IMG/VR virus record: IMGVR_UViG_3300031974_002523
Span: 1 to 37,648 of that record
DNA length: 37,648 bases
From: a virus
Direction: 5' to 3' (one strand)
Shown here: positions 4,307 to 18,942 of the stretch, piece by piece
How the letters are laid out: every line of letters begins with the position of its first letter
Position numbering within the stretch: position 1 is the first letter of the stretch
Program-made: the position numbers and the translations under genes
The notes under the pieces: generated by a model
Databases searched by the model: none
What the model was told of the DNA's origin: nothing
Seen by the model: only the letters and a program-made list of their open reading frames with translations

Positions 4307-6170
4307 ATTTTACCTCACATGCGCCTCCAGCGCAAGCAATTTCTCCACTTAAATTCGTATTATCGTCTATTTCTTGAACTTGTGTAAGGTCAATCTCTTT
4401 AATTGTGGATAATAGGTTAATATATGTGAACTCATCACAATCTTCCAAAGGAGCTTGCTTGTATGTTCCGCCATCATAAGGAAGGACTGATAGGCCATTA
4501 TAGTAATTTCTATTTTCCCACATCCATTCTTTGATGTCTCCCCACTCTTCTTTCTTGACCGACAAAGTTGCAGAAATGTTGTGAGTATTGCTTCCTTTGC
4601 TATGCCCTGGTTTAATCCAGTTTTGATAAAACCATTTAACTCTTTCTGCCAAATCTAAAGCAGATTCGGTTCGCAAGATAGCTGTTGATGGAGCCTTTTG
4701 CGGAATAGAAATAACTGCCGTATCATGTGGCCTATAATATTCATCCTCGACAAGCTCTGGATGATTGATTGCCAAATAATGATAAATGTCTTCATTTTTT
4801 GCGACACGCAGTCTTCTGATATAAAAATCATTATGCCAAGCATGAATACCGCTTGAACAACCCAAAACAAGAGAAGATGTTCCACTTGGCTTAATTGTTG
4901 TTACTCTTGCTGCTTTGTTAATTCCAAAAAGCTCTGCTGCTCTTTTGTTTTCTTCTTTTGCAATTTTTGCAGACTGAGACATATCCATTGTTTGAGCAAC
5001 GCCAGAGCCAATTCCTGTCAAGCCAACGCCAACAAGAGCTTCTTTTTCTGTTGTTCGCTGCCAGATTGGACGAAGATAGTGAAAGTTTGTGTATGTTGCT
5101 TGAAGTGTTCCAATAAATGCAGCAGCACGAACACGATTATTTAAATCTTCTTGAGACTCAATGTTGCTGACATTTACTTCGCAAAGATTGCAGAATTGAA
5201 ATGGGCGAAGTGCAATCTCACAACAAGGATTTGTTCCCATATCTTTGTCGTTTGAAAAATAAATTCCTGGCTCACCTGAATTTGAATGCTCAATTCTATC
5301 GGCCAACTTCATGAAAAACTCTTTCTCAACACGATGACGAACAAGAACAGCAGAATTATTTGCTCTTGCTCTTTGTGGATTCTTTTCCCACCAATTTCCT
5401 GATTTGCAAGCAATCATTTCATCATCATCAGCAGAAAATAGAGAAATAAGTGCAGCTCGACGGATACCACCAGCAAGAACTGCATCTGCAATATGACAAA
5501 CAATATCATGAACTTCAATAGAATCAAGCTGAGAGCCTTCTTCTTTCTCATTCAAGATTGATTTAATTTGACGAATACAAATCTTTAGTGGCTCTGGTCC
5601 AGGAGCTTTACCACCTGAAGTTACAAGCTTTGCACCCTTTGGACGGATATCAGAAAAATCAAATTCAATTGTTGATGTTCCCTCAAAATAAGATCTCATC
5701 AAAGCTTTAACTGCATCGGCCCAACCTTCAATAGAATCGCCAACGAGGAATCTGCGCTTTCTATTTGCACGAGGATGTCTGATTTCTGGAAGCTTTTCAA
5801 TGTGATGCTTTTGGACTGAGAATCCAATACCAGTTCCGCCTAGTAAAAGAAAGAGAATTTCGCTGAAAGCTCTGTAATCATCAACAGGCAAGTAACCACA
5901 ATTATAAATGCGGTTTGGACTGATTTCAATTGGCTTTCCTCCAAATTGAAGAGAACGCATTGATGGCAGAATTTTCTTATCATAGACATACTTATAAGCT
6001 TCTTCAATTTCTTCCTTTGCAGAAGGAAACTTTTTAATGTGCATTTCCTTGTTTCTTGTTACTAATTCTTCCCATGTTTCTCTTCGACCAAGTTCTGGTC
6101 TGTATTTTGCATACTTCATGAACACTGTGATGTCCGAAAGTATCTTGTTTGATATATCCATTTTAAGCAT
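4299..6170 (-). CDS. rtpR: Monomeric adenosylcobalamin-dependent (class II) ribonucleoside-triphosphate reductase
   Basis: Reduces ribonucleoside triphosphates to deoxynucleotides with B12 as radical source. Visible landmarks: redox Cys91 (NCGYLP), a glycine-rich GGTGIGFSV, GGIRRAALISLF, the radical-site motif NPCCEI (Cys316 and Glu318), the partner Cys327 (FCNL, eleven residues on, the same spacing as in the Lactobacillus leichmannii enzyme), the KPSGTSSLVLG loop and a C-terminal CAGGAC cysteine pair (613 and 618) for re-reduction. At 623 residues it is shorter than the roughly 740-residue Lactobacillus enzyme but keeps all these residues. It overlaps the helicase stop by eight bases, so it is transcribed with DNA replication genes. 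T4 uses the oxygen-dependent class Ia enzyme instead. Confidence 0.95.
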   Translation of the reverse strand: MLKMDISNKILSDITVFMKYAKYRPELGRRETWEELVTRNKEMHIKKFPSAKEEIEEAYKYVYDKKILPSMRSLQFGGKPIEISPNRIYNCGYLPVDDYRAFSEILFLLLGGTGIGFSVQKHHIEKLPEIRHPRANRKRRFLVGDSIEGWADAVKALMRSYFEGTSTIEFDFSDIRPKGAKLVTSGGKAPGPEPLKICIRQIKSILNEKEEGSQLDSIEVHDIVCHIADAVLAGGIRRAALISLFSADDDEMIACKSGNWWEKNPQRARANNSAVLVRHRVEKEFFMKLADRIEHSNSGEPGIYFSNDKDMGTNPCCEIALRPFQFCNLCEVNVSNIESQEDLNNRVRAAAFIGTLQATYTNFHYLRPIWQRTTEKEALVGVGLTGIGSGVAQTMDMSQSAKIAKEENKRAAELFGINKAARVTTIKPSGTSSLVLGCSSGIHAWHNDFYIRRLRVAKNEDIYHYLAINHPELVEDEYYRPHDTAVISIPQKAPSTAILRTESALDLAERVKWFYQNWIKPGHSKGSNTHNISATLSVKKEEWGDIKEWMWENRNYYNGLSVLPYDGGTYKQAPLEDCDEFTYINLLSTIKEIDLTQVQEIDDNTNLSGEIACAGGACEVKYV

Positions 6171-7539
6171 TCGCCCCTTTTACTAGTTTCTTATATTTGT
6201 CAAGAAGATAATTTGCTTGCTCTTCTTTTGAAAGTTGTGGAGTTCTCGACTCCTCTTGTGTGTATCGATCCAAAATCTTAATATCAATATTGGCTGTATC
6301 CATAAAGATATTATACACTAATCCATCAGGTCCATTTCTATTTTTTGCAATGTAAACTCTTCCACCGTTTGTTTGCTTATCGTCTGCTGTTCTTGAAACA
6401 GAGAAAATAAGATCAGCAACAAAACACTTATTAAAAGCTTCTGAAATACTTTGCATTGTAATGATTTCTGCCTGTAATCCTGTGCGATTTGTTTGTGATG
6501 CAGTCCAGCCAACAACTTGGTTCTCCATCATAATCGCTCGTAGTTCTTCGTAAATAGATTCAAGTTCTTCTCTCTTCTCACTTCTTGCTGATAAAGTTTT
6601 CAAAAGATCAGCATAGTCAACAATAATCATATCTGGAATGATGTCCTGTTGTTTTAATTTCTGAAGATGAGCACGAATTGTATTTGTTGTTGCTGTTTTT
6701 GTTGGATACTCTTTTACGATAAGCGTTCCATCAATATCTCGCAAATACTCTCGAATTTCTTCTTTTCTGTCCATCAATTCATTCAATGGAATGCCAGTAA
6801 TGCACGAATCATATCGGCTTGCAATAACTGTATCTTTTAATTCAAGCGTATAGTGAACAACTGTCATTCCTGCTTTGACTGCTTCAGCACCAAGATGAAC
6901 GAGAACCATTGATTTTCCAACTCCTGTTGGAGCGATAACAACGCCGATTTCACCTCGACCACCTCCGCCACCAGTAATCTCATCCATTTTCTTCCAGCCG
7001 GTCGTGATTGTCTCTCGTCCCGTGAACTCGAATCTTTCTTCAAAATCTTTGATATAATCGTAACCAAAATCTGCATCGGCACCTGCCTTCAATGCATTGT
7101 TGATTACCACAGAAATTTCATCAAATGAGCATTTTTGGAGCAGTGTAGTTGATTTTAACATTGCTTCTCTGAGTTTCTGCTTTCTACAGAAATCAATGGC
7201 TGTATCTTTTACAAATTCACAAGACTCAAGGATTGAGATATCGGCCATAGCTTTGGCATAATAATCTCTGATTTGCTTTTGTGTCACTTCATTAAGATCA
7301 TCGATGCCGGACCGAATGATCGTCTTCATTGTTTCATTTGATGGATGTGATGAATATTTTTTCTTGTATTGGAAAATCTTCTCGACAAATGCTTGAAGAT
7401 ATCTATACTCCAAGAATTCAATATTAAGAACTTCCATCATTCGATCTGCAAAAACTCTATCATCTAAAACGATGAAAGCGAGCTTCTCCTGAAATGATTT
7501 ACCGTATTTTGAAAATGAAACTTTTTCTGTAGTGATCAT
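6163..7539 (-). CDS. 41: Replicative DNA helicase, DnaB/T4 gp41 type
   Basis: A 458-residue hexameric 5'-3' helicase of superfamily 4 that unwinds DNA ahead of the fork. An N-terminal helical domain (about 1-170) is followed by a RecA-like motor: TTGWKKMDEITGGGGGRGE, Walker A APTGVGKS at residues 203-210, HYTLEL (motif H1a), Walker B MIIVDYADLL, and a later ASQTNR motif with the conserved Gln. The length matches gp41. It begins with a strong AAGAGGA ribosome binding site and lies 75 bases downstream of RNase H with its own promoter. It overlaps the ribonucleotide reductase gene. No gp61-like primase is seen in the window. Confidence 0.95.
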   Translation of the reverse strand: MITTEKVSFSKYGKSFQEKLAFIVLDDRVFADRMMEVLNIEFLEYRYLQAFVEKIFQYKKKYSSHPSNETMKTIIRSGIDDLNEVTQKQIRDYYAKAMADISILESCEFVKDTAIDFCRKQKLREAMLKSTTLLQKCSFDEISVVINNALKAGADADFGYDYIKDFEERFEFTGRETITTGWKKMDEITGGGGGRGEIGVVIAPTGVGKSMVLVHLGAEAVKAGMTVVHYTLELKDTVIASRYDSCITGIPLNELMDRKEEIREYLRDIDGTLIVKEYPTKTATTNTIRAHLQKLKQQDIIPDMIIVDYADLLKTLSARSEKREELESIYEELRAIMMENQVVGWTASQTNRTGLQAEIITMQSISEAFNKCFVADLIFSVSRTADDKQTNGGRVYIAKNRNGPDGLVYNIFMDTANIDIKILDRYTQEESRTPQLSKEEQANYLLDKYKKLVKGANA

Positions 7540-7563
7540 AAATCCTCTTGTTAGTGTTCTTGG

Positions 7564-7592
7564 ATCATATACGAACTCATGACAAAAGTCAA
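7564..7592 (-). promoter_or_regulatory. Sigma70-type promoter for the helicase-RNR operon
   Basis: On the minus strand TTGACT (7587-7592) and TATGAT (7564-7569) are spaced by 17 bases in the 75-base gap before the helicase gene. Transcription would start near 7557, leaving about 18 bases of leader with the AAGAGGA site. The -35 lies in a short inverted repeat (TGACTTTTGTCA). Confidence 0.7.
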
Positions 7593-7614
7593 GAGTTATG
7601 TTAGATAACTAGTG

Positions 7615-8574
7615 TTATTTTTTGGCAACGATAGATCTAAATTTCTGAAAAAGCGATTCCCAATTGAACTCAGAAATGCCATCTTGGATCATCATTTTTG
7701 TAATGTTGGTTCTGTTGACAGTAGGAGCGAAATTCTCAACAGTGTCTTTAATTCTCAGCGAACTTTTCATCGAAATATTTGGTGCATATAATTGCATTAA
7801 TTTATAATTCAGTTCAACTTTTTTTCTTTCAGTCAGAATGTTTTGGAAAATTTTCGCTCCGGTATCATCCGATTTGCAGTAATTGAAAATGTCATCAAGA
7901 GTGCTTGGAAATTCATCTGCAAGGAATGTCATTTTCTTTGCAATTGTTTTTAGGCCAGCACCTTTAACACCTTCAAGGTTATCTGATTTGTCACCATCAA
8001 TTGCTCTAGCCAGGGCAAAATTGTTTGGATGAATATTAAAATTTTCAAGAATTCTTTTTTTGTTTATAAATTCATCTTTAATTGGAGAGTAGACCATTGT
8101 CTCATTGTCGCACAATTGATAGAAGTCTTTGTCCATTGAAGCAATAATTTTAATTGTGCCTTTCAAGAAAGGCATTCTGCAAACATAAGCAATAACATCA
8201 TCTGCCTCGACATCATCAATCAATAATTGAATGACGGGCATCTCATTTAGATATTCTACTGTTCTTGATAATTGTCGATAACGATTTTCTGATTCTTCAA
8301 GAGCTGACATTCCTGAATAAGCACGATTTAATTTTAGTGGCTTTCGGCCATCCTTGTATTGTTTTGCAAGTGCTCGACGCTTGGCAGAACCTCCGCCGCC
8401 ATCCCACACAACAACAATTTTATCAGGATTAATTTCACGAGACATCTTTTGCAAAGACATTAAAAAGCCTTTTGTGCCTCCAATTGGTGCGCCATCAGCG
8501 GCTAAGGAAGGATTCATTACATAATTTCTTATGAATGCATTCATTGCATCGACAATCAATATTTTCTCTGACAT
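7615..8574 (-). CDS. rnh: 5'-3' exonuclease/flap endonuclease of the T4 RNase H (FEN) family
   Basis: Removes RNA primers and flaps from lagging-strand fragments. The 319-residue protein shows the FEN layout: ILIVDAMNAFIRNY at the very N-terminus (first metal-binding Asp), VVVWDGGGGSAKRRALAKQY, IDDVEADDVIAY, ASMDKDFYQL, and the helix-hairpin-helix region AIDGDKSDNLEGVKGAGLKT. The acidic metal ligands expected for activity are present. The length is close to the 305 residues of T4 RNase H. The ATG at 8574 must be the start because the first catalytic strand follows at once, yet it has no ribosome binding site; a consensus promoter places the transcript start two bases upstream, so it may be translated from a leaderless message or by coupling to the preceding gene. 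Confidence 0.93.
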   Translation of the reverse strand: MSEKILIVDAMNAFIRNYVMNPSLAADGAPIGGTKGFLMSLQKMSREINPDKIVVVWDGGGGSAKRRALAKQYKDGRKPLKLNRAYSGMSALEESENRYRQLSRTVEYLNEMPVIQLLIDDVEADDVIAYVCRMPFLKGTIKIIASMDKDFYQLCDNETMVYSPIKDEFINKKRILENFNIHPNNFALARAIDGDKSDNLEGVKGAGLKTIAKKMTFLADEFPSTLDDIFNYCKSDDTGAKIFQNILTERKKVELNYKLMQLYAPNISMKSSLRIKDTVENFAPTVNRTNITKMMIQDGISEFNWESLFQKFRSIVAKK

Positions 8575-8582
8575 TATAAGGA

Positions 8583-8612
8583 ATTATAGCAGAGATTGGA
8601 TGATGCTGTCAA
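8583..8612 (-). promoter_or_regulatory. Perfect-consensus sigma70 promoter for RNase H
   Basis: On the minus strand TTGACA (8607-8612), 18 bases, TATAAT (8583-8588). The -10 overlaps the TAA stop of the phosphomannomutase gene. The predicted start of transcription, about 8576, is two bases from the ATG at 8574, which implies a leaderless mRNA. Confidence 0.7.
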
Positions 8613-9384
8613 TGATTTTTATCGTTTCTTGTGGATTTTTTACTTCAAATGCTTGATTTGGGGTGTTTTCCCTTACTTTATCGTAGATTGGCTTGTCATT
8701 TCCAGTCTCTACAGTGCATCTATCGCCCACAAACCAATGATTGTGGCCTTCATAGTAGTTTAAAGCATAGGTTTTATCCCAACCATGCGGATAAATGTCA
8801 ATAGAGGTGTTTCCCCCCAAAGAAAAGGCTAAATCTTCTGATAATTCGCTATTTTTTAACTTTTCGAGCACTTCCAGACGAACATTGTGTTCTTTGTCGT
8901 ATTTTTTGAACTCTTCTCTGTCTTGATTGTTGGCAGAACGACCAATTGGGCAAAAATTAACAAGAGAATCACGATAAGATATGAAATTTCCAGTTGCAGG
9001 CATCTTATATTGATGTGAAAGTGACAAAACATACAACCTTTCAATTAAAATTGATACGAGGACTCTATATTTATCTTCTCCAAGATGCTCTCTCATGTCC
9101 AAAGAGAACTCTTTTTGCCACAATCCATTTTCCCACTCATTTCTATCCCAAGAATATTTTTGAGTCCCGTTACATGGAAGGATTAGAAAGTTTGAAAAGT
9201 CTTTACTTGACTTAAAAAGCGAACCACATTGTTGCATCACATATTCAAAAGTGCTGCCAGTGACAATTCCAACTTTTGCAACTTTTGAAAGGGCTATCAA
9301 AGCTTCTTCCATATCTTGTTCAATTGATTTTCTGGCTGGTGTTAGTGTGCCATCCATATCAAATAAAACTACATTATCCATCAT
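8584..9384 (-). CDS. Eukaryotic-type phosphomannomutase (HAD superfamily)
   Basis: Interconverts mannose-6-P and mannose-1-P. The family is the human PMM2/yeast SEC53 HAD type, not the bacterial ManB type. Landmarks: VVLFDMDGTLTPARK with the two catalytic Asp; GIVTGSTF; ILPCNGTQ; the substrate-binding cap with GNFISYRDSLVNFCPIGRSA and YDKEHNVR; FSLGGNTSIDIYPHGWDKTYAL; and HWFVGDRC for Mg binding. About 266 residues, slightly longer than PMM2 (246). I use the ATG at 9384, seven bases after AAGGA; a TTG five codons upstream and an ATG one codon downstream are also possible. It overlaps the small HAD gene by about eleven bases and is the last gene of the sugar cassette. Mannose-1-P would normally be activated to GDP-mannose, but no guanylyltransferase is in view. 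Confidence 0.92.
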   Translation of the reverse strand: MMDNVVLFDMDGTLTPARKSIEQDMEEALIALSKVAKVGIVTGSTFEYVMQQCGSLFKSSKDFSNFLILPCNGTQKYSWDRNEWENGLWQKEFSLDMREHLGEDKYRVLVSILIERLYVLSLSHQYKMPATGNFISYRDSLVNFCPIGRSANNQDREEFKKYDKEHNVRLEVLEKLKNSELSEDLAFSLGGNTSIDIYPHGWDKTYALNYYEGHNHWFVGDRCTVETGNDKPIYDKVRENTPNQAFEVKNPQETIKIIDSIIQSLL

Positions 9385-9781
9385 TATCATTTCCTTCAAT
9401 CATTGAAAGCTCATTCAAAGCTTGGCTCCAACTATTAAACCTAATTGCTTTATCGTCTATATATACAATTGCTCTTGGCTTTTCACTAGTTACTTCGCTA
9501 ACATACTGTGATAAATTATACTTTTCAAGCCATTCCCATATAAGTTCGACTCCTGTCTTGCCATTTACAAGTGGCCGATCTGGCTTTGCTTTTGCTGAAA
9601 AGACGACAATATTGTATCTATCTGACAAACTTTTGATTGCTTCAATTGCTCCATCGATTGGCTCATCATATACAGTTCCATCATGAAAACCTTTTGAATT
9701 CTTATGAATAACTCCATCGAAGTCGATAGATATATTATTGCTGTTTTCGTGATTTTGCTTTTTGTTATATTCGTCAATCAT
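9374..9781 (-). CDS. Small HAD-superfamily hydrolase
   Basis: About 135 residues with a minimal HAD fold: the nucleophile motif SIDFDGVIH, a VVFSAKAKPDR segment at the second motif, and RAIVYIDDKAIRF for the Mg-binding acidic pair. There is no cap domain, so the substrate may be large or phosphorylated sugar-like. I choose ATG 9781, which overlaps the preceding stop as ATGATTGA; a TTG nine codons upstream keeps the frame open. It lies in the sugar cassette between the DUF6165 gene and the phosphomannomutase. A role like that of KdsC or sialate-phosphate phosphatase, both HAD enzymes, would fit the cassette but is inference. Confidence 0.82.
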   Translation of the reverse strand: MIDEYNKKQNHENSNNISIDFDGVIHKNSKGFHDGTVYDEPIDGAIEAIKSLSDRYNIVVFSAKAKPDRPLVNGKTGVELIWEWLEKYNLSQYVSEVTSEKPRAIVYIDDKAIRFNSWSQALNELSMIEGNDNDG

Positions 9782-10160
9782 ATTTTTCGTATATCTTTTC
9801 TTCAACAAACTCTGAATTAAGAAGTATATTGATTTCCTTTTTTATTACAGCTCGTTTATCATTGGTTACATAAACGCTTCTGGCCAAATCAATAAATCCT
9901 TGATCAAATGACTTATCTTTCTCCTTAAGTCTAATTGAGTCTTCAATATCCCATAAAGCTTGATTGACATCTTTCAAATCTTTATATAGATCTTTCAGCT
10001 CAGTTGATTCAAAATATTTGCTTAACTTTTCTTTGATATATGATAACTCATTATTAATGTTTATCTTTTTATCATTGTCGCTAACATTTTGTGCTTTAAT
10101 TTCTAAAATAGTCATCTTGTCGAATGCATCTCCAAGAGGAACTTTCATATCAATAGACAC
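9774..10160 (-). CDS. DUF6165-like protein
   Basis: About 128 residues. The pattern VPLGDAFDKMTILEIKAQ, NELSYIKEKL, VNQALWDIEDSIRLKEKD, FIDLARSVYVTNDKRAVIKK, and a final EEKIYEKY matches, from memory, the DUF6165 family of small proteins found near glycosyltransferases in surface polysaccharide loci. Function unknown. The start is a GTG at 10160 with GAGGAG eight bases upstream; a longer frame up to 10193 would only add residues overlapping the upstream stop. It lies in the middle of the sugar cassette, in keeping with the family's usual context. Confidence 0.75.
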   Translation of the reverse strand: MSIDMKVPLGDAFDKMTILEIKAQNVSDNDKKININNELSYIKEKLSKYFESTELKDLYKDLKDVNQALWDIEDSIRLKEKDKSFDQGFIDLARSVYVTNDKRAVIKKEINILLNSEFVEEKIYEKYD

Positions 10161-10165
10161 TTGTA

Positions 10166-10846
10166 TTACTCCTCGTCGTATATATAATTCCAATCATTGT
10201 TTTTGGTCCACTTTTCGTTGATTATAAATTGTAAAACTTTGTTGTGAACATGACCTCTGTTAAAAAATGATTGCCTACAATATAGATGTGAATTAATTTT
10301 TTTGCCTGATAAAGCTGATTCTGAAAAATTCACAAAACTACCCTCATATAAATGAATCTCTTTTGCGTTTTCAAGAACCTTGGTATAATCAAGTATGAGT
10401 CGAGGATTTAAGCCATTATCTTGCATCCAATTATGGTCCAAATTTACAACTGGAGAATTAAACTTTATGTATTTTTTATTAATTGGAACTAGTTTAAAGC
10501 CATTATTGTCAGTTGGTCTCCAATGAGAAATGACATAATCTTTGCCAAATTTATTGACAATCTCGTCATACGCTGATTGTTCTTCTTTAAGATTCCTATC
10601 CCATCTAACTTGACGCCAACTCGGATGCGCGATTGCTTCATCAAACTCTATGTTGTGTGGCGTAGCTGATGGCGCATTAAAAGATATGTTGTCCGTGTCA
10701 GAATAAAGTCTTTTAAACAAATATTCTAACCTAGGAACATGCAAGTTGACTACATCATATTCTTTGCAATATTTTTCTTTTATTATTGACGAAAACATGA
10801 TGCCATCCCCTGTTCCGCCTGCATGAGTCAAGTTTATTAGGCTCAT
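10166..10846 (-). CDS. Putative glycosyltransferase (GT-B-like), uncertain
   Basis: A 226-residue soluble protein. It starts NLTHAGGTGDGIMFSSIIKE, a strand-glycine loop-helix as in the first unit of GT-B transferases such as the heptosyltransferase (GT9) group, and later has LDYTKVLENAKEIHLYEGSF followed by NFSESAL, which resembles the donor-binding second half (strand-x-x-S-helix) of these enzymes. It is shorter than typical GT9 enzymes (about 320 residues). A strong GGAGATAAATA precedes the ATG. The call rests on this pattern and its place between the 2OG oxygenase and DUF6165 genes; it could be another Rossmann-type protein. Confidence 0.55.
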   Translation of the reverse strand: MSLINLTHAGGTGDGIMFSSIIKEKYCKEYDVVNLHVPRLEYLFKRLYSDTDNISFNAPSATPHNIEFDEAIAHPSWRQVRWDRNLKEEQSAYDEIVNKFGKDYVISHWRPTDNNGFKLVPINKKYIKFNSPVVNLDHNWMQDNGLNPRLILDYTKVLENAKEIHLYEGSFVNFSESALSGKKINSHLYCRQSFFNRGHVHNKVLQFIINEKWTKNNDWNYIYDEE

Positions 10847-10850
10847 TTAT

Positions 10851-11534
10851 TTATCTCCTCTTTCTTGTGATTGCTGCATAGATAAATTTTCTAGGTATTT
10901 CACAGTTTGTAATCTCGTTTACTGAATGATAGCTTACATCATTTGACAAAAACATGAGTGCTCTATTCTTTCTATGATTTACCATAACAGCCTTCTCGAC
11001 ATTTGTTGGGTATTGCTGTGCCTTGTTGCACCCTTCTTTTGCCCTATAAAGACATATCTCTCCGCCATCATGCTTGCTATCATTAAAAGAGAACAAAAAG
11101 ACTATCAATCTACCATTTGTATCTCTGTGGACTTCTCGGCTATATCCATCCTCACCAATACTGATGTCATAGTCTAGGTAATAATCCTCTTTGCATAGTT
11201 TCTCTAGATCGAAATTATTATCTTCTATCCCCAAATAATTTAATACATGCTGCTTAAATGGATTTATCATGTTCATCATAAACTCATCTGATCTAACAAT
11301 ATCCATAAAATTATTAAGAGATTGGCCATACTTTATAGGGTTCGATTCATATACAGCTTTCATGATCCTTCGGCGGCCAAACATTCGGTCATCGATGTTT
11401 CTATCCATCCTTGAAAAAAATTCTTTTTCAATATTATTTATCAATTCAGCATCCATAAAATCATCAATCATTACAAATGGATATGGATCTTCTTTGACCA
11501 TGCTGCTATCTATTAATTTGTATTTAGTCTGCAT
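10851..11534 (-). CDS. 2-oxoglutarate/Fe(II)-dependent oxygenase
   Basis: A 227-residue double-stranded beta-helix oxygenase of the prolyl-4-hydroxylase-like group. The iron ligands are visible: His136 and Asp138 in EVHRDTNGRL, and His203 in DVSYHSVNEI; the 2-oxoglutarate-binding basic residue is Arg215 or Lys216 in IPRKFIYAAI. Between them GGEICLY and RALMFLS form the expected strands. Such enzymes hydroxylate proteins, nucleic acids or small molecules; many aquatic T4-like phages carry one, usually with unknown target. It sits just downstream of the fused aldolase/CMP-sugar gene with a short gap and its own AAGG site, so a sugar or sugar-protein substrate is possible. Confidence 0.88.
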   Translation of the reverse strand: MQTKYKLIDSSMVKEDPYPFVMIDDFMDAELINNIEKEFFSRMDRNIDDRMFGRRRIMKAVYESNPIKYGQSLNNFMDIVRSDEFMMNMINPFKQHVLNYLGIEDNNFDLEKLCKEDYYLDYDISIGEDGYSREVHRDTNGRLIVFLFSFNDSKHDGGEICLYRAKEGCNKAQQYPTNVEKAVMVNHRKNRALMFLSNDVSYHSVNEITNCEIPRKFIYAAITRKRR

Positions 11535-11537
11535 ACC

Positions 11538-13217
11538 TTACTTCACCTTTAATAGCTGTTCTTCGACAACTGGAATATCTTCTGGAAAATCAACAGCATA
11601 TGAAACATTATCGACAAGAAGCATCTTGACTGGGATTGATTTCTCTAAAAACCTTACAATTTCTATATCTTCCTGTGATTCTAAAGGAGTCTTTGTTTCG
11701 CTCTTAAAGTCATTTAATTGTTTTTTACTAAAAGCGTAAATACAAACTTGCTTATACACATCTTTAGTCTTTCCAGCTTTGTTACCAGGCAAAACATTTC
11801 TGCTGCAATATAACAGATTATTGTCAAGATCGCAAATAACTTTTGGTATTTTTCTGTCTTCTGGGTTATCTTCTTTGCATACTGAAGACATGCAATTTAT
11901 AACATGATTTGGGTTTCTCTTTTTAAGATCAATAGCCCTTTTGATATCTTCTGGGTCAATCATTGGCTCATCGCCTTGGACATTCACAAAAATATCTGCA
12001 TCGATCTCTTCTGCTGCTTCGGCTACTCTGTCTGTCCCCGTCAAACATTTATCTGATGTGATGACTACTTTATATCCATTTTTCCTTACCACAACAGCAA
12101 TTTCAGAATTTTCAGTTGCAACATAAACATTTTCTTTTCCGACTGCTTGTTCTGCTTTCTCCGCGACATGAAGAATCATCTCTTTGCCATTTATCTTTGC
12201 TAATGGCTTTCCAGGAAATCTAGAAGATTTATATCTTGCAGGAATAACAACCACTGCTCTTTGCTCTTTTAGATCATCCAAAAGTGATGGATCATACGAT
12301 GATTGCCCTTTGAGAGAATTAAGAGACTTGACTAGAGAATCATTTGATAAATTTGAGCCATTCAGATCCTGAACATAGAGTGGATGGATCGTGTGCTTGC
12401 CAGCCATCATATATAATGGATTTTGGCCCCATTTGTATACATCTTTCATCTCCTGAACCATGTCAATGCAATCCAATAGAGATGGCAATATTGTTCCAGA
12501 ATCTTGAAGCAATTGCTCTGTCTTTACATTGCCGACGCCTCGGCCCATTCCAAGCAATGTGCCATCAATATAATTTGCTCCACATTTAACGGCCTCAAGA
12601 CAATTCGCAAATGCTAGGCCCATATTGTCATGAGTGTGGATGCCATCAATGTCCCTAGTTCTAAACATTTTTCTGACATCATATGGTGTTAGCGAACCAT
12701 ATGAATCTGCAATATACTTAACACCTATTCCTATTCTTTTGCACTCACTAATAAAACTATCAATCTGAGCATCTGATAGAATTGATGCCGTCATTAGATT
12801 GCAGAACACCTCATATCCAAGCGAAGCGATACATTCATTAAGTGTCTCAAGATATCGCAACTCATCAATTTTTATAGCTATTCTACAAACATCAAAAGGA
12901 GAAGATGATTTTTCTTTTATGATGTCAAATAAGAGATCTTTATTTACTTTGCCGGTGTCGATGAAGTCTTTAGCATCGATCATGAATGCTAGCTTGGCCA
13001 TTACCGGAAAGTCAACAACAGAAGATATAAATCCGTCATTGCATTTTCTATATGGGCCACCAAGCTTTGGAGATTTGTATCCAAGCTCAATGATGTTAAC
13101 GCCGTGTTTGTCTAAAGATTTTACCAAAGATTTAACAAAAATCTCTGAGAAATCCCAATCTGTATAATATCCACCATCTCTAAGAGTGCAGTCTAAAATA
13201 TTAACATTTCTGCTCAT
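11538..13217 (-). CDS. Fused pyruvate-type aldolase and CMP-ulosonate (KdsB-like) cytidylyltransferase
   Basis: A 559-residue two-domain enzyme. Residues 1-about 310 are an HMG-CoA-lyase-like TIM barrel close to 4-hydroxy-2-oxovalerate aldolase: ILDCTLRDGGYYTDWDF (Asp9, Arg13), HTHDNMGLAFAN (metal ligands His194 and His196) and GTLLGMGRGVGNVKTEQLL. Residues 320-559 are a CMP-Kdo synthetase: VVIPARYKSSRFPGKPLA, VNVQGDEPMI (residues 411-420), YKQVCIYAFSKKQL, ESQEDIEIVRFLE and AVDFPEDIP. The pairing suggests that the first domain builds a 2-keto-3-deoxy sugar acid from pyruvate and an aldehyde and the second activates it with CTP. The exact sugar cannot be read from sequence. The gene overlaps the next upstream gene by four bases (ATGA). 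Both active sites look intact. Confidence 0.93.
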   Translation of the reverse strand: MSRNVNILDCTLRDGGYYTDWDFSEIFVKSLVKSLDKHGVNIIELGYKSPKLGGPYRKCNDGFISSVVDFPVMAKLAFMIDAKDFIDTGKVNKDLLFDIIKEKSSSPFDVCRIAIKIDELRYLETLNECIASLGYEVFCNLMTASILSDAQIDSFISECKRIGIGVKYIADSYGSLTPYDVRKMFRTRDIDGIHTHDNMGLAFANCLEAVKCGANYIDGTLLGMGRGVGNVKTEQLLQDSGTILPSLLDCIDMVQEMKDVYKWGQNPLYMMAGKHTIHPLYVQDLNGSNLSNDSLVKSLNSLKGQSSYDPSLLDDLKEQRAVVVIPARYKSSRFPGKPLAKINGKEMILHVAEKAEQAVGKENVYVATENSEIAVVVRKNGYKVVITSDKCLTGTDRVAEAAEEIDADIFVNVQGDEPMIDPEDIKRAIDLKKRNPNHVINCMSSVCKEDNPEDRKIPKVICDLDNNLLYCSRNVLPGNKAGKTKDVYKQVCIYAFSKKQLNDFKSETKTPLESQEDIEIVRFLEKSIPVKMLLVDNVSYAVDFPEDIPVVEEQLLKVK

Positions 13218-13915
13218 TTTAGAACCCTTCTTGGAAATGAATCTGATATCCTGGATTTTGTGGAAAGTATTTCCGATGTGATTCCCTTTTCGCTTAGATA
13301 ATCATACAACACATTGCTTGATTCTATAATCAAATTAGCTTCATTGTTTCCCAGCGGGGCCGAAGGATTGTGAAAAACTCTTCTGTTTTGGTGCCCATAA
13401 AAATGATTTAAGTGGCCATCTTGATTGTTCAGAGTGTAGTCCCATCCAATAAACTTAATGTGAGAGAATCCACAATGAACAATAAATGGAATAACAGTTT
13501 CATACATTATTCCTGGACCCCAAGTAACAATCTTATCTGATGAGTCAAACTCGTTTAACGAGAAATCTTCTTTTCCAGCTACAGTATTGTTAATAGAGAA
13601 CCCATCTTTTATTGGAAAGAAATAAGAAACTGGCTTTGAACAAAACGGCCTAAAATTGAACTTGCCCATTCCAGATGCAGTGATAATCTCTGTTTTGTCA
13701 GAATAGGAATAATAAACTAAGTTATTGTCGTTAATAAAGTGATAATCGCACTCTTCTACAAATTCATATTGTGCTTGCTTGACACAGATAACAACATCAT
13801 CTTCAATCTCATTCTGATATTGTTGTTTCGTATACTCTTGCAAGCTTGGTCCACATGCCGCAATAAAAGCGGTTTGGCCTTTATGCTTATCCTTAATGGC
13901 CATTATGTCTTTCAT
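13214..13915 (-). CDS. Putative CMP-sugar transferase, GT42/DUF115-like
   Basis: A 233-residue protein beginning, after 15 residues, with TAFIAACGPSLQEY. The GPSL loop is typical of the DUF115/MAF motility-glycosylation family and of the Campylobacter sialyltransferase CstII (GT42, GNGPSL). Further matches to that group are VVICVKQAQYEF, WGPGIMYETVIPFIVHCGF and HIKFIGWDYT, where CstII has the segment ending in a conserved Gly-x-Asp. It overlaps the fused CMP-sugar gene by four bases, which supports a role in using its product. It also overlaps uvsX by four bases (ATGA). Fold family is likely; donor and acceptor are inferred. Confidence 0.72.
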   Translation of the reverse strand: MKDIMAIKDKHKGQTAFIAACGPSLQEYTKQQYQNEIEDDVVICVKQAQYEFVEECDYHFINDNNLVYYSYSDKTEIITASGMGKFNFRPFCSKPVSYFFPIKDGFSINNTVAGKEDFSLNEFDSSDKIVTWGPGIMYETVIPFIVHCGFSHIKFIGWDYTLNNQDGHLNHFYGHQNRRVFHNPSAPLGNNEANLIIESSNVLYDYLSEKGITSEILSTKSRISDSFPRRVLK

Positions 13916-15054
13916 TTAGAAACTTCCTCGCTAGATGTTTCTGGCTCTTCTTCGCCTTCAAGAGTATAGAATGAGCTTGCATCACCTGTTTTATCATTAA
14001 ACTTCTGAATGACTTCTTCGTCGATAATATCATAAACAAGGTTTGCAAATGCTTGATCAGTCTTCATAAGCTTTGGAAATGTTGCTGCTTGGAACTTTTT
14101 ATCATATCCTTCAAGAGTAAACCAAGCACCAGCATTCTTTAATTTATCTGATGGCTTAATGGCTGTCAGAAGTGACTCATCGTTCATAATACCAACTTCA
14201 TCACCACCCCATATGATCTTGAAATTACATACACGACCTTGAGTTCCAAACTTTGATTTTTCAAGTTTTGCTTTTACTTCTGAGCCAATTCGGAATCCGC
14301 TTTCATTCTCAACATAAGATTTCTTGCTTTTCAATCCTGTTAGCCAAATTCTGAGAGAATAAGCATAAATGATTGCTTTGCCACCTGGAGTGAACCATGG
14401 CTGGGAAAGCATCATCATTGGGTTGCTTGTGTTGATGTTTGTCTTTAATTGATTGAGAACAAGGAATGTTGATTGTGTTTGGTTGAGACCAACAGTCAAT
14501 TTCTGCATACCTAAAGAAAGAACTCTTGGTTTCTGAGCCATTGAACCTTGTGGGTTAAAGTCTTTTTCAAGATCTGCTCGACATGGAGTCATTGCCAAAG
14601 AATCAAGAATAAAAAGATAACGACTATCTGGATCATTGGCCATACAAAGCTCAACAGTTTCAAGAACCATTTCGACATCATCTGGTTGAATAATGATAAT
14701 TTGATTGTCACCATCCATATCACAACCAAGTTTCTGCAAGAATTCAGAAGTCATTGTTTGTTCAGAATCAAAATACATAACTTTAATTCCTTTCTTTTGT
14801 GCTTCTGCTGCAACTTGTCCAGCCATGTAAGACTTACCGGAAGATTCAAGACCTGCAATCTCTGTCACTCTTCCAACTGGAATACCTGCTAATTGTCCTT
14901 GACAGATGATTGAGTCAAGCCACCTTGAACCAGTTGAAATCCAATCTCGAATATTTGCTGGATTTTCTTCTTCAGCTGTGAAAGCAATTTGCCTTCCAGC
15001 CTTCTTGTTGATGAGATTTAATATGTCTTTTTGTGATACTTTTCCGTTAGCCAT
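13912..15054 (-). CDS. uvsX: RecA-like recombinase UvsX
   Basis: A 380-residue strand-exchange recombinase used in recombination-dependent replication and repair. Walker A is GLESSGKS at residues 68-75, followed by VMYFDSEQTMT, Walker B LFILDSLA, and VLNQLKTNI for the conserved Gln of loop 2, then WFTPGGKAIIYAYSLRIWL as in T4 UvsX. The C-terminus is acidic (EGEEEPETSSEEVSK). Length is near that of T4 UvsX (391). The leader contains a hairpin 20 bases upstream of the ATG. It follows gp32 in the operon; the two proteins cooperate on ssDNA. Confidence 0.96.
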   Translation of the reverse strand: MANGKVSQKDILNLINKKAGRQIAFTAEEENPANIRDWISTGSRWLDSIICQGQLAGIPVGRVTEIAGLESSGKSYMAGQVAAEAQKKGIKVMYFDSEQTMTSEFLQKLGCDMDGDNQIIIIQPDDVEMVLETVELCMANDPDSRYLFILDSLAMTPCRADLEKDFNPQGSMAQKPRVLSLGMQKLTVGLNQTQSTFLVLNQLKTNINTSNPMMMLSQPWFTPGGKAIIYAYSLRIWLTGLKSKKSYVENESGFRIGSEVKAKLEKSKFGTQGRVCNFKIIWGGDEVGIMNDESLLTAIKPSDKLKNAGAWFTLEGYDKKFQAATFPKLMKTDQAFANLVYDIIDEEVIQKFNDKTGDASSFYTLEGEEEPETSSEEVSK

Positions 15055-15158: not shown

Positions 15159-15893
15159 TTACGCAGTGAGTTCACGAATAGCTTCGTCAACACTACTTAC
15201 AATGCCAATATCCGCATTCATTGGTCCTTCAGTTGGATTTAAATAAGACTCAAGGATCGCTTGCACTTCGGAGGATGACTTTCGAGAGAATAGAGTCTCG
15301 ATGTCTGGCACATTCGTCAACAACTCGTTCACTTCAGCTTTGGATTTCAATAGGGGGGAAGATTTTCGCTTCGGAACAAGATTTGTCTGAGGAAACGCTC
15401 CCTTAGTCTTAGGCAATGTATAAGTTAATGTAAAATCAACACCGTCGTCTACATCGGTGATATCTCCATAGTCGGGATTGAGAACAAGGCCAAGAAGGGT
15501 TTCATAAATGGTTTTACCATAACCCCAAATCTTAACACCTGATTCTTCTTCTCCACGAACAATTACAGGAGAAAAGAATCGTTGGCGAACGAAAAGATTC
15601 TTAGCCATCTTCTTGCTGTCATCTGTTCCCTCTTGCCAAAGCTTTGAAGCAAAGTCACAAACTGGACATTTATCTCCATAGTTTCGCTGTGGACACAAAA
15701 CACCACCACGAGCTGATTCTCCTAGATTATAATGAAAATGAAATACCTTGAACGGATCTCCGTCAGCAGTTGGAACAAATCGAACTTCTTGATCGCCTTC
15801 GCTTGGCTTCCAAAAAATATTATCCTTCTTTGATTTTCCACCATTTTCCAATTCGTTGAGCTTTGCTCGCATTTTAGCCATATCTAACGCCAT
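15159..15893 (-). CDS. 32: Single-stranded DNA-binding protein gp32
   Basis: A 244-residue gp32 homologue that coats ssDNA in replication and recombination. A basic N-terminal segment (MAKMRAKLNELENGGKSKKD) precedes DNIFWKPSEGDQEVRFVPT as in T4-like gp32. The zinc site is visible as a His in KVFHFHYN with Cys67, Cys76 and Cys79 (CPQRNYGDKCPVC). It is shorter than T4 gp32 (301) and its C-terminal tail is only mildly acidic. AGGAG lies before the ATG. The gene has a 54-base leader with a hairpin, and an internal promoter lies upstream in the tubulin-like gene. Confidence 0.93.
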   Translation of the reverse strand: MALDMAKMRAKLNELENGGKSKKDNIFWKPSEGDQEVRFVPTADGDPFKVFHFHYNLGESARGGVLCPQRNYGDKCPVCDFASKLWQEGTDDSKKMAKNLFVRQRFFSPVIVRGEEESGVKIWGYGKTIYETLLGLVLNPDYGDITDVDDGVDFTLTYTLPKTKGAFPQTNLVPKRKSSPLLKSKAEVNELLTNVPDIETLFSRKSSSEVQAILESYLNPTEGPMNADIGIVSSVDEAIRELTA

Positions 15894-15947: not shown

Positions 15948-16781
15948 TTATTTTTGTATTATAGATGTATGTTTAACGCAGTAAACATAATCCTGCTCAT
16001 ATTCAGTTTCAAAGATGCCGTATGAAACTCTAACATTCTCTGTTGTTTTCTCATTAATCGACATCTTTATTTGTTTCATTAGATTAGAATCATTTTCCAA
16101 TCTTTCTTTATTGTATGCATAATAATACATTATATCTGACACGCTGTCAAGTGTAAAAAACATATTATCTACATTTTTTTCTGGTGAAGCAATTCCAATA
16201 GTTGTGATTCTTGCTCCAGGTGGAAGAACATAAAATGTATCGTCCACTGATTTGATATGATTGTATTTGTTAATCATATGCATTGTAGAAACAAGAATCT
16301 CGTTAATCTTTTCGTTATATAACTTTACTGGAACTCCACCAATAATATTTTCTAATTCTGAATTGGAAACGATATAAAGTCTTTCAAATAAGCCTGAACG
16401 AGCATATTCTTGAAAAACATTGTATACCATCCTTTCCAGCTTTTGTTTTAGAGGTGATAAAAAAGACATGTCTGGCTTTACATAAAGCACATTAATCTTA
16501 CATTTATTTTTAAGATGCTTTAAAATTGCCAATGATGCAGATGATACAGAACCTGATCCTCCAACAACAAATAACACTTCTCCTCTTACGCCTCTGAAAA
16601 AATACTGAAGATTTGGCAATTTCTTTTCATAATCTTCAGTCTTTGAAAACTGTGGCAATGGAAATGTTGTCTTGGTTTTTTCAAGACCAACATCAATTTT
16701 ATATGTTCGATATTGTGGATACTTTGCAAATTGATCTGCAATGTTGCATCCAGCACTTCCAAGGCCAACAATAATATCCAT
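15948..16781 (-). CDS. Divergent tubulin/FtsZ-superfamily GTPase-like protein
   Basis: A 277-residue protein whose layout follows FtsZ/tubulin. It starts IIVGLGSAGCNIADQFAK (glycine-rich T1 loop, compare FtsZ and tubulin VGxGxxGxN), has LFVVGGSGSVSSAS at residues 71-82 in place of the GGGTGTG signature, LYVKPDMSFLSP like the FtsZ TRPFSFEG segment, IVSNSELENI like IPNDRLLEI, an Asn at 160 in the ribose-binding region, and ITTIGIAS like the strand after the T7 loop. The last Gly of the signature is Val, and I cannot identify the catalytic acid with certainty (Asp180 or Asp181 are candidates). It is smaller than FtsZ and lacks an obvious C-terminal tail. It lies between a MazG-like gene and gp32, overlapping the former by one base. 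Phage tubulins (PhuZ, TubZ) position or move DNA; that role here is inferred. Confidence 0.72.
   Translation of the reverse strand: MDIIVGLGSAGCNIADQFAKYPQYRTYKIDVGLEKTKTTFPLPQFSKTEDYEKKLPNLQYFFRGVRGEVLFVVGGSGSVSSASLAILKHLKNKCKINVLYVKPDMSFLSPLKQKLERMVYNVFQEYARSGLFERLYIVSNSELENIIGGVPVKLYNEKINEILVSTMHMINKYNHIKSVDDTFYVLPPGARITTIGIASPEKNVDNMFFTLDSVSDIMYYYAYNKERLENDSNLMKQIKMSINEKTTENVRVSYGIFETEYEQDYVYCVKHTSIIQK
16122..16150 (-). promoter_or_regulatory. Intragenic sigma70-like promoter upstream of gp32
   Basis: On the minus strand TTGACA (16145-16150), 17 bases, TATTAT (16122-16127), 11/12 match, inside the tubulin-like gene. It could supply extra gp32 transcript with a leader of about 220 bases. 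A second TATAAT nearby is at an unusable 10-base spacing. Confidence 0.4.
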
Positions 16782-17095
16782 TAATCCTGAACCTCCAAAA
16801 GAATGTATCTCTTTGAGAATCCTCCACGATTAATGTTCTTTGCAATTCTTTGCTCTTCTAAAAGTGTATCCCATCCATTTGCTTCTGCAATGGAAAGAAT
16901 TACTTCTTGAATGTCTGCAAGCTCTTCAACGCAAGGTGTTTCTAAGTATTCTTCGACTTCTTCTTGAAGTTTCTTTTTTAGATGTGCTGAGTATTCAATC
17001 TCATTTGCGATTGTTACTTTTGCTTTCTTGCCTTGATTAAAAATGATTTCAGGAACCTTATCTCTGATAAGTTTGTTATACTTTTTTAGAGTCAT
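16781..17095 (-). CDS. MazG-like nucleotide pyrophosphohydrolase
   Basis: A 104-residue all-alpha NTP pyrophosphatase-like protein. It begins YNKLIRDKVPEII, the usual start of the phosphoribosyl-ATP pyrophosphohydrolase-like branch of the MazG group, and has the metal-binding signature LQEEVEEYLE followed by VEELADIQEVI (ExxE...ExxD). The C-terminal GGFSKRYIL is also typical. Such enzymes hydrolyse NTPs or (d)NTP analogues; phage versions are thought to tune nucleotide pools. Coupled to clpP and the tubulin-like gene by TAATG overlaps. Confidence 0.88.
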   Translation of the reverse strand: MTLKKYNKLIRDKVPEIIFNQGKKAKVTIANEIEYSAHLKKKLQEEVEEYLETPCVEELADIQEVILSIAEANGWDTLLEEQRIAKNINRGGFSKRYILLEVQD

Positions 17096-17706
17096 TATTC
17101 ACCTTTATCAAATTCAATATTAACATCAAAGTTAATCTTTAGTTTTGGAAGACGCAAGTGCTGGACAATATTATGCTTAACACATTCGTCAGAATCTAGA
17201 AACCAATCTGCATGGCCTTTTTCATGAATGATATCCAAAAAATAATCTTTGTTCTTTCCGCAGTTTTTAGCCATCATTTGAAAAACAATTTTGTTTAATC
17301 TTGCAGCTTCTTCGGTGCTCGCTTTCATCTCTTCGATTTTTCCCCATGCCATTGAAGAAACATCGTGAATCATTACTGTGGCATTTGGATCCATAAATCT
17401 CATGCCTTTTGCACCAAATGTAGATAAGATTGCTCCACATGACATTGCTTTTCCTTGGATGATTGTGGCAACTGGAATGTCAGAGTTTTGAATCTCTGAT
17501 ATCATTGCCATCAAGCTATACACTTGGCCACCATAAGAATCAATAACAACAGGGATGACTGGTTGTCCTGTGTTGTGTGCTGCTTCCATTTGAGCAGAAA
17601 ATTCTTTGGCTGAGTCTGGATCAAAGTTTTCAACTCTGATTATTACTGGTTCGTTAATTAATTCAGCATCCTTCAAAAGATTGCTTCGCTTGTAGACTCG
17701 TTTCAT
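17095..17706 (-). CDS. clpP: ClpP-family serine protease
   Basis: A 203-residue ClpP-like peptidase. The catalytic triad is intact: Ser89 (GKAMSCGA), His114 (VMIHDVS) and Asp167 (HADWFLDSDE). The segment VVIDSYGGQVYSLMAMISEI aligns with the substrate-binding INSPGG region, with Tyr in place of Pro. Length is normal. Some phages use ClpP-like enzymes as prohead proteases, but this one lies between the DNA polymerase and MazG genes, away from the capsid genes, so a cytoplasmic regulatory or host-protein target is equally possible. No ClpX/ClpA-type unfoldase is seen. It overlaps the polymerase gene by four bases (ATGA) and has GAGGAAG upstream. Confidence 0.93.
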   Translation of the reverse strand: MKRVYKRSNLLKDAELINEPVIIRVENFDPDSAKEFSAQMEAAHNTGQPVIPVVIDSYGGQVYSLMAMISEIQNSDIPVATIIQGKAMSCGAILSTFGAKGMRFMDPNATVMIHDVSSMAWGKIEEMKASTEEAARLNKIVFQMMAKNCGKNKDYFLDIIHEKGHADWFLDSDECVKHNIVQHLRLPKLKINFDVNIEFDKGE

Positions 17707-18905
17707 TTGAGCTTCCTCATGTTTCCAAAGTTTGTGCCAATACTAGCATTAACTTTAAATTTACCAAACTCAGTATTACTGAATTCGTTAACTAAACTTT
17801 TAAGGATTTCTCTATCTTCCCCAGAAAAATCTATTACCATACTATCATGAATCAGGCCCATTATGTAGCTTTTTTTTCCTTTTAATGCATTTTTTATTTT
17901 GATTGCTTTTCTCAAAAAGATATCTGATGTTGTGCTTTGAATAATAAAGTTCAATGCTCTAAAGCGATCACATTCAATCTTTCGACCAAAAGGATTATTT
18001 ACATATTTTCCGTCCCAATACTTTTCAACTGTTCCGACTTTGTTATAGAAGTTTTCAATCTCTGGCATTCCCAAAGTTGCTGATTCTCCTCCATAAAGCC
18101 ATGAAAACATTTTAACCTTAATTTCTTCTCTTGTCAAGTTTTCAGAATAGATATTGTTTATTTTTTCTCTGTGCCATTCATGGATATCTCCATCTGGTTG
18201 TGACTGTTCATTCAAGGCCAACAAACATCTTAATTCTGCCGCATTGAAATCAAGTTCAAGAAAGAAATCATTATTTGGACTGAGAATATCTCGATAAGCT
18301 TTGTCCATTGTCAAGATCGGAAAAGAATCTTTCTTTGTTGTTAATCTTCCTGTGACAGTTCCAAAAACATTATAATTTACAAATGGAGATGTTCTTGAAA
18401 GTTTCTCTCTGAACTTTCTTGCTTTGTATTGATGAAGCTTATCATTCATCTTGTTTGCATCAACATTCAAAGGTCTTTTTGAAATATCATTTACAAGATC
18501 ACTTAATCCAACCAAGAAATCATAATTCTCTGGTTTTCTAAAATTCTTGAAAACATAATCAGTTATTTTTGATTTTACTTTATTGTAATCTAAAACAAAT
18601 GATTCAGGAACAAGATCATAAAAACAATAATCAGAAGAAATAACTTTTGCTTTTTGAAATGATCTCAAATAAGAAAAATGTTTTTTCTTAATATCATCCC
18701 ATTCTTCTTTCAAATGCTCAGGACAACATTGATCAATGTTTTTTCCTCCAACATACAAAGAAGCAAAATCAATATTATGATCCAATAAAGAAGAATCAAA
18801 TGACCATGTTTTAGATAACATATTGTAATCAGGATGTTTATCTATATGATCATTGACAAAAATGCTATTGCATTCTTTTTTGTTATCAATAATATGGAAT
18901 AACAT
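17703..18905 (-). CDS. Family A DNA polymerase, polymerase domain only
   Basis: A 400-residue DNA polymerase I-type catalytic domain. Visible motifs: FGTVTGRLTT (template contact), motif A FLELDFNAAELR (catalytic Asp, usual DYSQIELR), motif B region EIKVKMFSWLYGG, NFIIQSTTSDIF, and motif C LIHDSMVIDF (catalytic Asp; the usual HDE reads HDS). There is no 3'-5' or 5'-3' exonuclease domain, so the N-terminal 150 residues only contain divergent helical sequence. T4-type phages normally use a family B enzyme (gp43); a separate family A polymerase domain is known from the distant T4 relative Rhodothermus phage RM378. The ATG at 18905 is chosen because the promoter just upstream starts transcription about two bases away; a GTG at 18923 would lie upstream of that start site. 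Confidence 0.9.
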   Translation of the reverse strand: MLFHIIDNKKECNSIFVNDHIDKHPDYNMLSKTWSFDSSLLDHNIDFASLYVGGKNIDQCCPEHLKEEWDDIKKKHFSYLRSFQKAKVISSDYCFYDLVPESFVLDYNKVKSKITDYVFKNFRKPENYDFLVGLSDLVNDISKRPLNVDANKMNDKLHQYKARKFREKLSRTSPFVNYNVFGTVTGRLTTKKDSFPILTMDKAYRDILSPNNDFFLELDFNAAELRCLLALNEQSQPDGDIHEWHREKINNIYSENLTREEIKVKMFSWLYGGESATLGMPEIENFYNKVGTVEKYWDGKYVNNPFGRKIECDRFRALNFIIQSTTSDIFLRKAIKIKNALKGKKSYIMGLIHDSMVIDFSGEDREILKSLVNEFSNTEFGKFKVNASIGTNFGNMRKLK

Positions 18906-18913
18906 ATTATAAG

Positions 18914-18942
18914 ATCTTATCACAGATCGCAGAACATGTCAA
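18914..18942 (-). promoter_or_regulatory. Sigma70 promoter for the polymerase operon, leaderless start
   Basis: On the minus strand TTGACA (18937-18942), 17 bases, TAAGAT (18914-18919), 11/12 match, overlapping the end of the upstream gene. The -10 is eight bases from the ATG at 18905, the same geometry as at the RNase H gene, so the mRNA should have a leader of only about two bases. Confidence 0.7.

Follow-up and report, generated by a model that had tools for sequence, protein, structure and literature searches.

We find that a 37,648-nucleotide stretch of viral DNA, hereafter the window, encodes a degenerate member of the tubulin/FtsZ superfamily, and that this protein belongs to an undescribed family that is widespread in uncultured, mostly marine T4-like phages. 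The protein, P0001, has 277 residues and is encoded on the minus strand at positions 15948-16781, with an ATG start codon at 16781 and a stop codon that ends at 15948. Its family, which we call family A, belongs to the superfamily by fold, yet it fails the sequence features that define active tubulin/FtsZ GTPases. The explanation that we favor, and in which we place roughly even confidence, is that P0001 may serve the phage replication module as a subunit that binds nucleotide without hydrolyzing it, and not as a dynamic filament.

Family A is a real gene and is under purifying selection. Successively broader queries of IMG/VR returned 10, 411, 381, and at least 577 relatives; the reading frame is open in hundreds of relatives, and the median dN/dS across 36 independent pairs is 0.07. 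Residue counts given below refer to an alignment of 183 unique family A proteins. P0001 matches no Pfam model, the Tubulin model PF00091 included, and no PHROG. Judged by its curated cut-off, PF00091 gives only weak matches in 10 of 112 family A members, the best having an E-value of 0.0054. Likewise, phmmer and hmmsearch comparisons of family A to PDB sequences returned nothing significant, and tblastn searches with four members found no match among 50,697 phage records in INPHARED. Given that Pfam, PHROGs, PDB sequences, and tblastn all came back empty-handed, family A is unrecognized by sequence, and it is structure that recognizes it. Our search of the literature turned up no account of the family.

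An AlphaFold2 model of P0001 built from 112 family A members has a pLDDT of 96.5 and a pTM of 0.93. The best 50 PDB matches that Foldseek returns for this model are all FtsZ, TubZ, or tubulin; they extend over the full length of the protein, with a best E-value of 1.7e-12 and TM-scores by query of 0.66-0.75. An earlier AlphaFold model made with 9 sequences was poor (pLDDT 53), and its 47 best Foldseek PDB matches were all FtsZ. The order of strands and helices in the high-confidence model is that of tubulin: S1-T1-H1, S4-T4, S5-T5, S6-T6, a long helix H7 (residues 152-173), and a reduced C-terminal domain, in which the last modeled strand spans residues 265-272 and no helix follows before the chain ends at residue 277. 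Given the high pLDDT and pTM and the uniform identity of the Foldseek matches, the predicted tubulin/FtsZ fold of P0001 is well supported. Thus, structure prediction and Foldseek comparison, the check proposed with the original prediction of a divergent tubulin/FtsZ-like protein, returned a tubulin fold that matches FtsZ and TubZ over its full length, and neither another fold nor an unrelated Rossmann family.

The same model bears on the alternative that P0001 binds NAD(P) as a protein of Rossmann type and resembles FtsZ only through a GxGxxG motif. A few family A members do have weak Pfam matches to the TrkA_N and F420 oxidoreductase models, but PF00091 is also among such weak matches, in the 10 members noted above. 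Furthermore, the model aligns with FtsZ and TubZ through both domains and helix H7, and no Rossmann dehydrogenase is found among the best 50 PDB matches. This identity is largely refuted by the model and its Foldseek matches, and we regard it as very improbable.

The four motifs on which the original prediction was based are present in P0001: GLGSAGCN at residues 6-13, GGSGSVS at 74-80, KPDMSF at 102-107, and SNSEL at 139-143. In the predicted structure they fall at T1, T4, T5, and T6, respectively, which is the loop order of FtsZ and tubulin. As family features they fare unequally, since T1, Pro103, and Asn140 are kept across the 183 members, whereas the T4 'G-box' is variable and the 'EL' of SNSEL is not conserved. 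The T1 glycine loop (positions 16743-16766, minus strand) reads GLGxAG at residues 6-11 of family A and has fewer glycines than the GVGGGG of FtsZ; Gly6 is found in 182 of the 183 members, Gly8 in all of them, Ala10 in 161, and Gly11 in 143, with Ala replacing the latter in 37. Pro103 of T5 is conserved in 178/183 members. Asn140 of T6 (positions 16362-16364, minus strand), which aligns with the guanine-contacting Asn of FtsZ and tubulin, is Asn in 181/183. The core helix H7 (positions 16263-16328, minus strand) carries Asn160 (182/183) and an HMxN motif at residues 168-171, of which His168 is present in every member and Asn171 in all but one. In FtsZ and tubulin, the residue four positions before the H7 Asn stacks on the base; most family A members have an aromatic residue at this position, and P0001 itself has Asn. 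The alignment of Asn140 and Asn160 with the T6 and H7 Asn residues of FtsZ was obtained with hhalign against a comparison set of E. coli FtsZ and five other FtsZ proteins, and this match is statistically weak (probability 0.8%) and is used for register only. Because it is weak, we base the residue equivalences on the predicted fold and on the order of the motifs, not on superposition.

Active tubulin/FtsZ GTPases are defined by GGGTG[T/S]G at T4, which binds GTP, together with NxDxx[D/E] at T7, which is required for hydrolysis (PMC12583498). The T4 position of P0001 (GGSGSVS; positions 16542-16562, minus strand) is degenerate, and the corresponding strings vary across family A (GGSGDISGA, TSCGFVSAA, and VGSSYSSNY, among others), with GGGTG[T/S] found in 0/183 members. 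At the T7 loop position (residues 175-190; positions 16212-16259, minus strand) the catalytic acids are not conserved: a motif scan for N.D..[DE] found it in place at T7 in none of the 183 members, and T7 ranks at the 4th percentile of conservation, so that few stretches of the family vary more. The GAG-type T3 loop is missing as well, and a shorter segment with conserved Glu49, Tyr51, Glu52, and Pro56 stands in its stead. These sequence data agree with the suggestion that the protein could bind nucleotide yet not turn it over normally, a suggestion that now appears stronger, given the absence of both motifs and the lack of constraint on T7. However, PhuZ is a GTPase despite an imperfect G-box, so loss of motifs does not by itself prove that family A has lost GTPase activity.

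The imperfect G-box of PhuZ (GGASGSTIG) also counts in favor of a second alternative, in which P0001 would be a cytomotive tubulin, active like PhuZ and TubZ, that positions or segregates phage DNA by means of a diverged active site, as do the Foldseek matches to TubZ (TM 0.66-0.75) and to PhuZ-type phage proteins. Nevertheless, T7 of family A has no conserved acids, its T3 loop has been replaced by the short segment with Glu49, Tyr51, and Glu52, and the chain of P0001 stops just past its last strand, so that the long C-terminal tail of PhuZ and TubZ is missing. In addition, a 1 bp overlap with the upstream gene and a 54 bp gap to the downstream gene leave no intergenic room for a tubC-type centromere. 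In the absence of T7 acids, a C-terminal tail, and centromere space, a DNA-moving filament of this type is less likely, and we judge it to be quite improbable. Until now, phage tubulins had been described chiefly in jumbo phages (PhuZ) and in plasmid-like phages (TubZ), whose filaments owe their dynamics to GTP hydrolysis. Since PhuZ and TubZ rely on a working GTPase in this way, the idea raised in the original prediction, that P0001 positions or segregates DNA as they do, is not supported.

Comparison to individual relatives places P0001 at some distance from each of them. P0001 shares with FtsZ the two-domain fold and helix H7 (TM 0.75 to S. aureus FtsZ, 4dxd), the T1 glycines, and the Asn residues of T6 and H7. 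It differs from FtsZ in its low sequence identity (11-15%), in lacking GGGTG[T/S]G, the GAG T3 loop, the T7 NxDxxD motif, and the C-terminal FtsZ peptide, and in being a phage-encoded protein of 277 residues within a replication operon. Like TubZ, to which its TM-score reaches 0.75, P0001 is encoded on a mobile DNA element, but it has neither the GTPase motifs nor the long C-terminal tail of TubZ. No tubR/tubC-like arrangement is found at the positions adjacent to the P0001 gene, which are occupied by MazG-like and gp32 genes. PhuZ of the phiKZ-like jumbo phages is also small, phage-encoded, and imperfect in its G-box, and Foldseek matches P0001 to Noxifer PhuZ with an E-value of 7e-7. However, the TM-score is only 0.54, the phage lineage is a different one, and P0001 lacks the T7 acids, the C-terminal tail, and detectable sequence similarity to PhuZ. 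The best viral structural match is A0A6J5RW92 in BFVD (TM 0.79 by query), an FtsZ-like protein of an uncultured Caudovirales phage annotated as 'FtsZ Cell division GTPase', although it has 452 residues and is only 13% identical to P0001. The next viral matches are other phage FtsZ/tubulin-like proteins, including PhuZ.

The best-conserved stretch of family A is a QEYARS motif (residues 124-129; positions 16395-16412, minus strand) that closes the helix linking S5 to S6. It lies at the 100th percentile of conservation, and Gln124, Tyr126, Arg128, and Ser129 are invariant in alignment A6. QEYARS is a new signature and the strongest that the family has, and it is accompanied by His168 and Asn171 in lower H7 and by Arg191 after T7. 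Judging by tubulin topology, these residues would lie at the end of the protein opposite the nucleotide and would form one conserved polar patch.

P0001 is encoded within a replication operon with the order g18942, PolA, ClpP, MazG-like, P0001, gp32, and UvsX, in which ClpP and the MazG-like gene are variable members. Directly downstream of P0001 is gp32, the single-strand DNA-binding protein (positions 15159-15893, minus strand; PF08804, E 3e-15), followed by the UvsX/RecA recombinase (13912-15054, minus strand; PF00154, E 1.8e-34); farther along, beyond UvsX, lie genes for an exonuclease, a DnaB-type helicase, and ribonucleotide reductase. Directly upstream is a small MazG-like protein of 104 residues (16781-17095, minus strand), then a ClpP-like protease (17095-17706, minus strand; PF00574, E 3.5e-24) that is an occasional insertion into the operon, and the upstream partner PolA, a short family-A DNA polymerase of 406 residues (17703-18923, minus strand; PF00476, E 3.7e-14). 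This polymerase replaces the family-B gp43 of T4; Flavobacterium phage immuto likewise combines a family-A polymerase with this gene order. Thus, of the two neighbors originally named for P0001, gp32 is as claimed, whereas the 'mazG' label of the 104-residue protein has no Pfam or PHROG support.

The order PolA, MazG-like gene (where present), family A, gp32, and UvsX is conserved across family A loci, and the position of family A within it strictly so. A gp32 gene lies downstream of the family A gene in 193/193 loci with enough sequence (median gap 80 bp), and PolA lies upstream in 81/81 loci with full flanks; in those 81 loci, the MazG-like gene is found in 24 and ClpP occupies that place in 1. 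This invariant synteny supports the proposed link to replication. Taken by itself, however, co-location indicates co-expression at most and not a role in replication, as operons of T4-like phages hold genes of other functions too. Related phages without family A keep the operon and carry other small genes in that slot. Therefore, family A is not a universal replication protein, but rather an addition that has been fixed in one large lineage. In three relatives without family A (L392:2813-3256, L393:1346-1801, and L394:4374-4763), we observed a conserved-looking protein of ~130-150 residues between the polymerase and gp32 regions, with a C-terminal 'ILVHRK/ISIHRKK'.

The main rival to the replication reading casts P0001 as a decoy directed against cell division: as an FtsZ-like subunit that is dead for hydrolysis, it would bind or cap host FtsZ filaments and thereby stop division during infection. 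A full FtsZ fold with a dead T7 and T4 is the expected look of such a capping decoy, although the phage FtsZ inhibitors known so far are, to our knowledge, not FtsZ-fold proteins. The occurrence of family A inside the replication operon at every locus seen also argues against a decoy, even though phages often block FtsZ, as exemplified by lambda Kil (PMC3961180), T7 gp0.4 (PMC4944311), and T5 Hdi (PMC10714956). Similarly, the T7-side face that would be expected to plug host FtsZ is the least conserved, though a variable face could track host variation. On balance, we consider a decoy function unlikely.

When we searched family A-carrying records with PF00091, a second FtsZ-like protein came to light, which we call family B. 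Family B proteins are canonical and FtsZ-like, with 344-414 residues, an acidic N-terminal extension, and at least 107 relatives in IMG/VR; examples are P0002 (L088:1027-2121), P0003 (L087:937-2145), and others at L089-L168. The two families both belong to the tubulin/FtsZ superfamily and occur in related marine T4-like phages, some genomes of which carry both, but they share no significant sequence match, although hhalign places them in the right register. In contrast to family A, family B has an intact G-box (GGGTG[T/S] in 41/41 members) and an FDxKD T7 (37/41), and its T7 and T4 lie at the 90th and 99th percentiles of conservation, as compared to the 4th percentile for T7 of family A. Family B also has a clear profile match to FtsZ (hhalign, 97%), and its best PDB sequence match is named TUBULIN/FTSZ, GTPASE. 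Its genes lie among structural genes where inspected, near a gp21-like prohead protease in L087 and L114. No tblastn match to family B was found among cultured phages.

The existence of family B raises the alternative of a two-tubulin system in which degenerate family A co-assembles with canonical family B, since the intact motifs of the latter would make one active and one inactive partner available. We sampled 24 records, namely 23 larger than 100 kb and the window. Both families are present in 6 of these, as such a system would predict, but family B occurs alone in 10 and family A alone in 7 and in the window. The 7 large records with family A alone are 123-186 kb in length and possibly incomplete; even so, family A does not appear to depend on family B. 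The separate locations of the two, with family B in structural-gene regions and family A in the replication operon, also count against co-assembly, which we regard as having only a small probability.

The window carries T4-type genes for a major head protein (PHROG E 5e-72), a tail sheath protein (PHROG E 6.5e-67), gp32, and RecA/UvsX. The description of the phage as T4-like therefore holds with respect to these genes, but it is only a distant relative of T4 and has a family-A polymerase. The tail sheath protein (positions 27985-30900, 971 residues) contains a long insertion when compared to the tail sheath profile, which has 496 positions. Elsewhere in the window, a 559-residue open reading frame without a PHROG match (positions 11538-13217) looks, by eye, like an HMGL-type aldolase (N-terminal half) fused to a CMP-KDO synthetase-like domain (C-terminal half). 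Among cultured phages, the capsid protein is closest to those of Microcystis phage Mel-JY01, Flavobacterium phage immuto, and Rhodothermus phage RM378. This sequence relationship only suggests that the phage belongs to the 'Far-T4' group, of which RM378 is the isolate. Flavobacteriales or other Bacteroidetes have been proposed as hosts of this group (PMC4360716, PMC7198788, PMC13037479), and those three reports make no mention of tubulin or FtsZ. Family A is absent from RM378 by profile search, and from immuto, Mel-JY01, and LR756508 by both profile and operon position. In a test for a cellular origin of family A, 84,980 species genomes yielded a single match, in a WOR-3 MAG (L383; CP070664.1, labeled 'chromosome', locus 5514-10873). 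The match is a phage fragment of ~5.5 kb with polymerase, family A, gp32, and UvsX genes; it adjoins a run of N and is joined to bacterial genes, so that it is probably an assembly chimera.

To return to the reading that we favor, P0001 would retain both domains of the fold in full, together with part of a purine-nucleotide pocket, would have lost the parts that hydrolyze GTP, and might dock on the polymerase/gp32/UvsX machinery as a stable scaffold, cap, or regulator. We infer guanine-nucleotide binding, the absence of GTPase activity, a role in replication, and the identity of these partners. That a GTPase-dead tubulin homolog is a fixed part of the DNA replication machinery in a large group of uncultured T4-like phages is a more tentative proposition, and one that we hold as possible. 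If it is true, replisome scaffolding or regulation, and not division, transport, or DNA partition, would be the job of a tubulin-fold protein; we know of no earlier tubulin-fold protein with such a role. Family A puts the tubulin fold, stripped of its GTPase motifs, into a strictly conserved replication-operon slot of abundant ocean T4-like phages. This suggests that a relative of tubulin has been repurposed for phage DNA replication, and it allows one to test whether DNA replication can be served by a tubulin fold in the absence of polymer dynamics.
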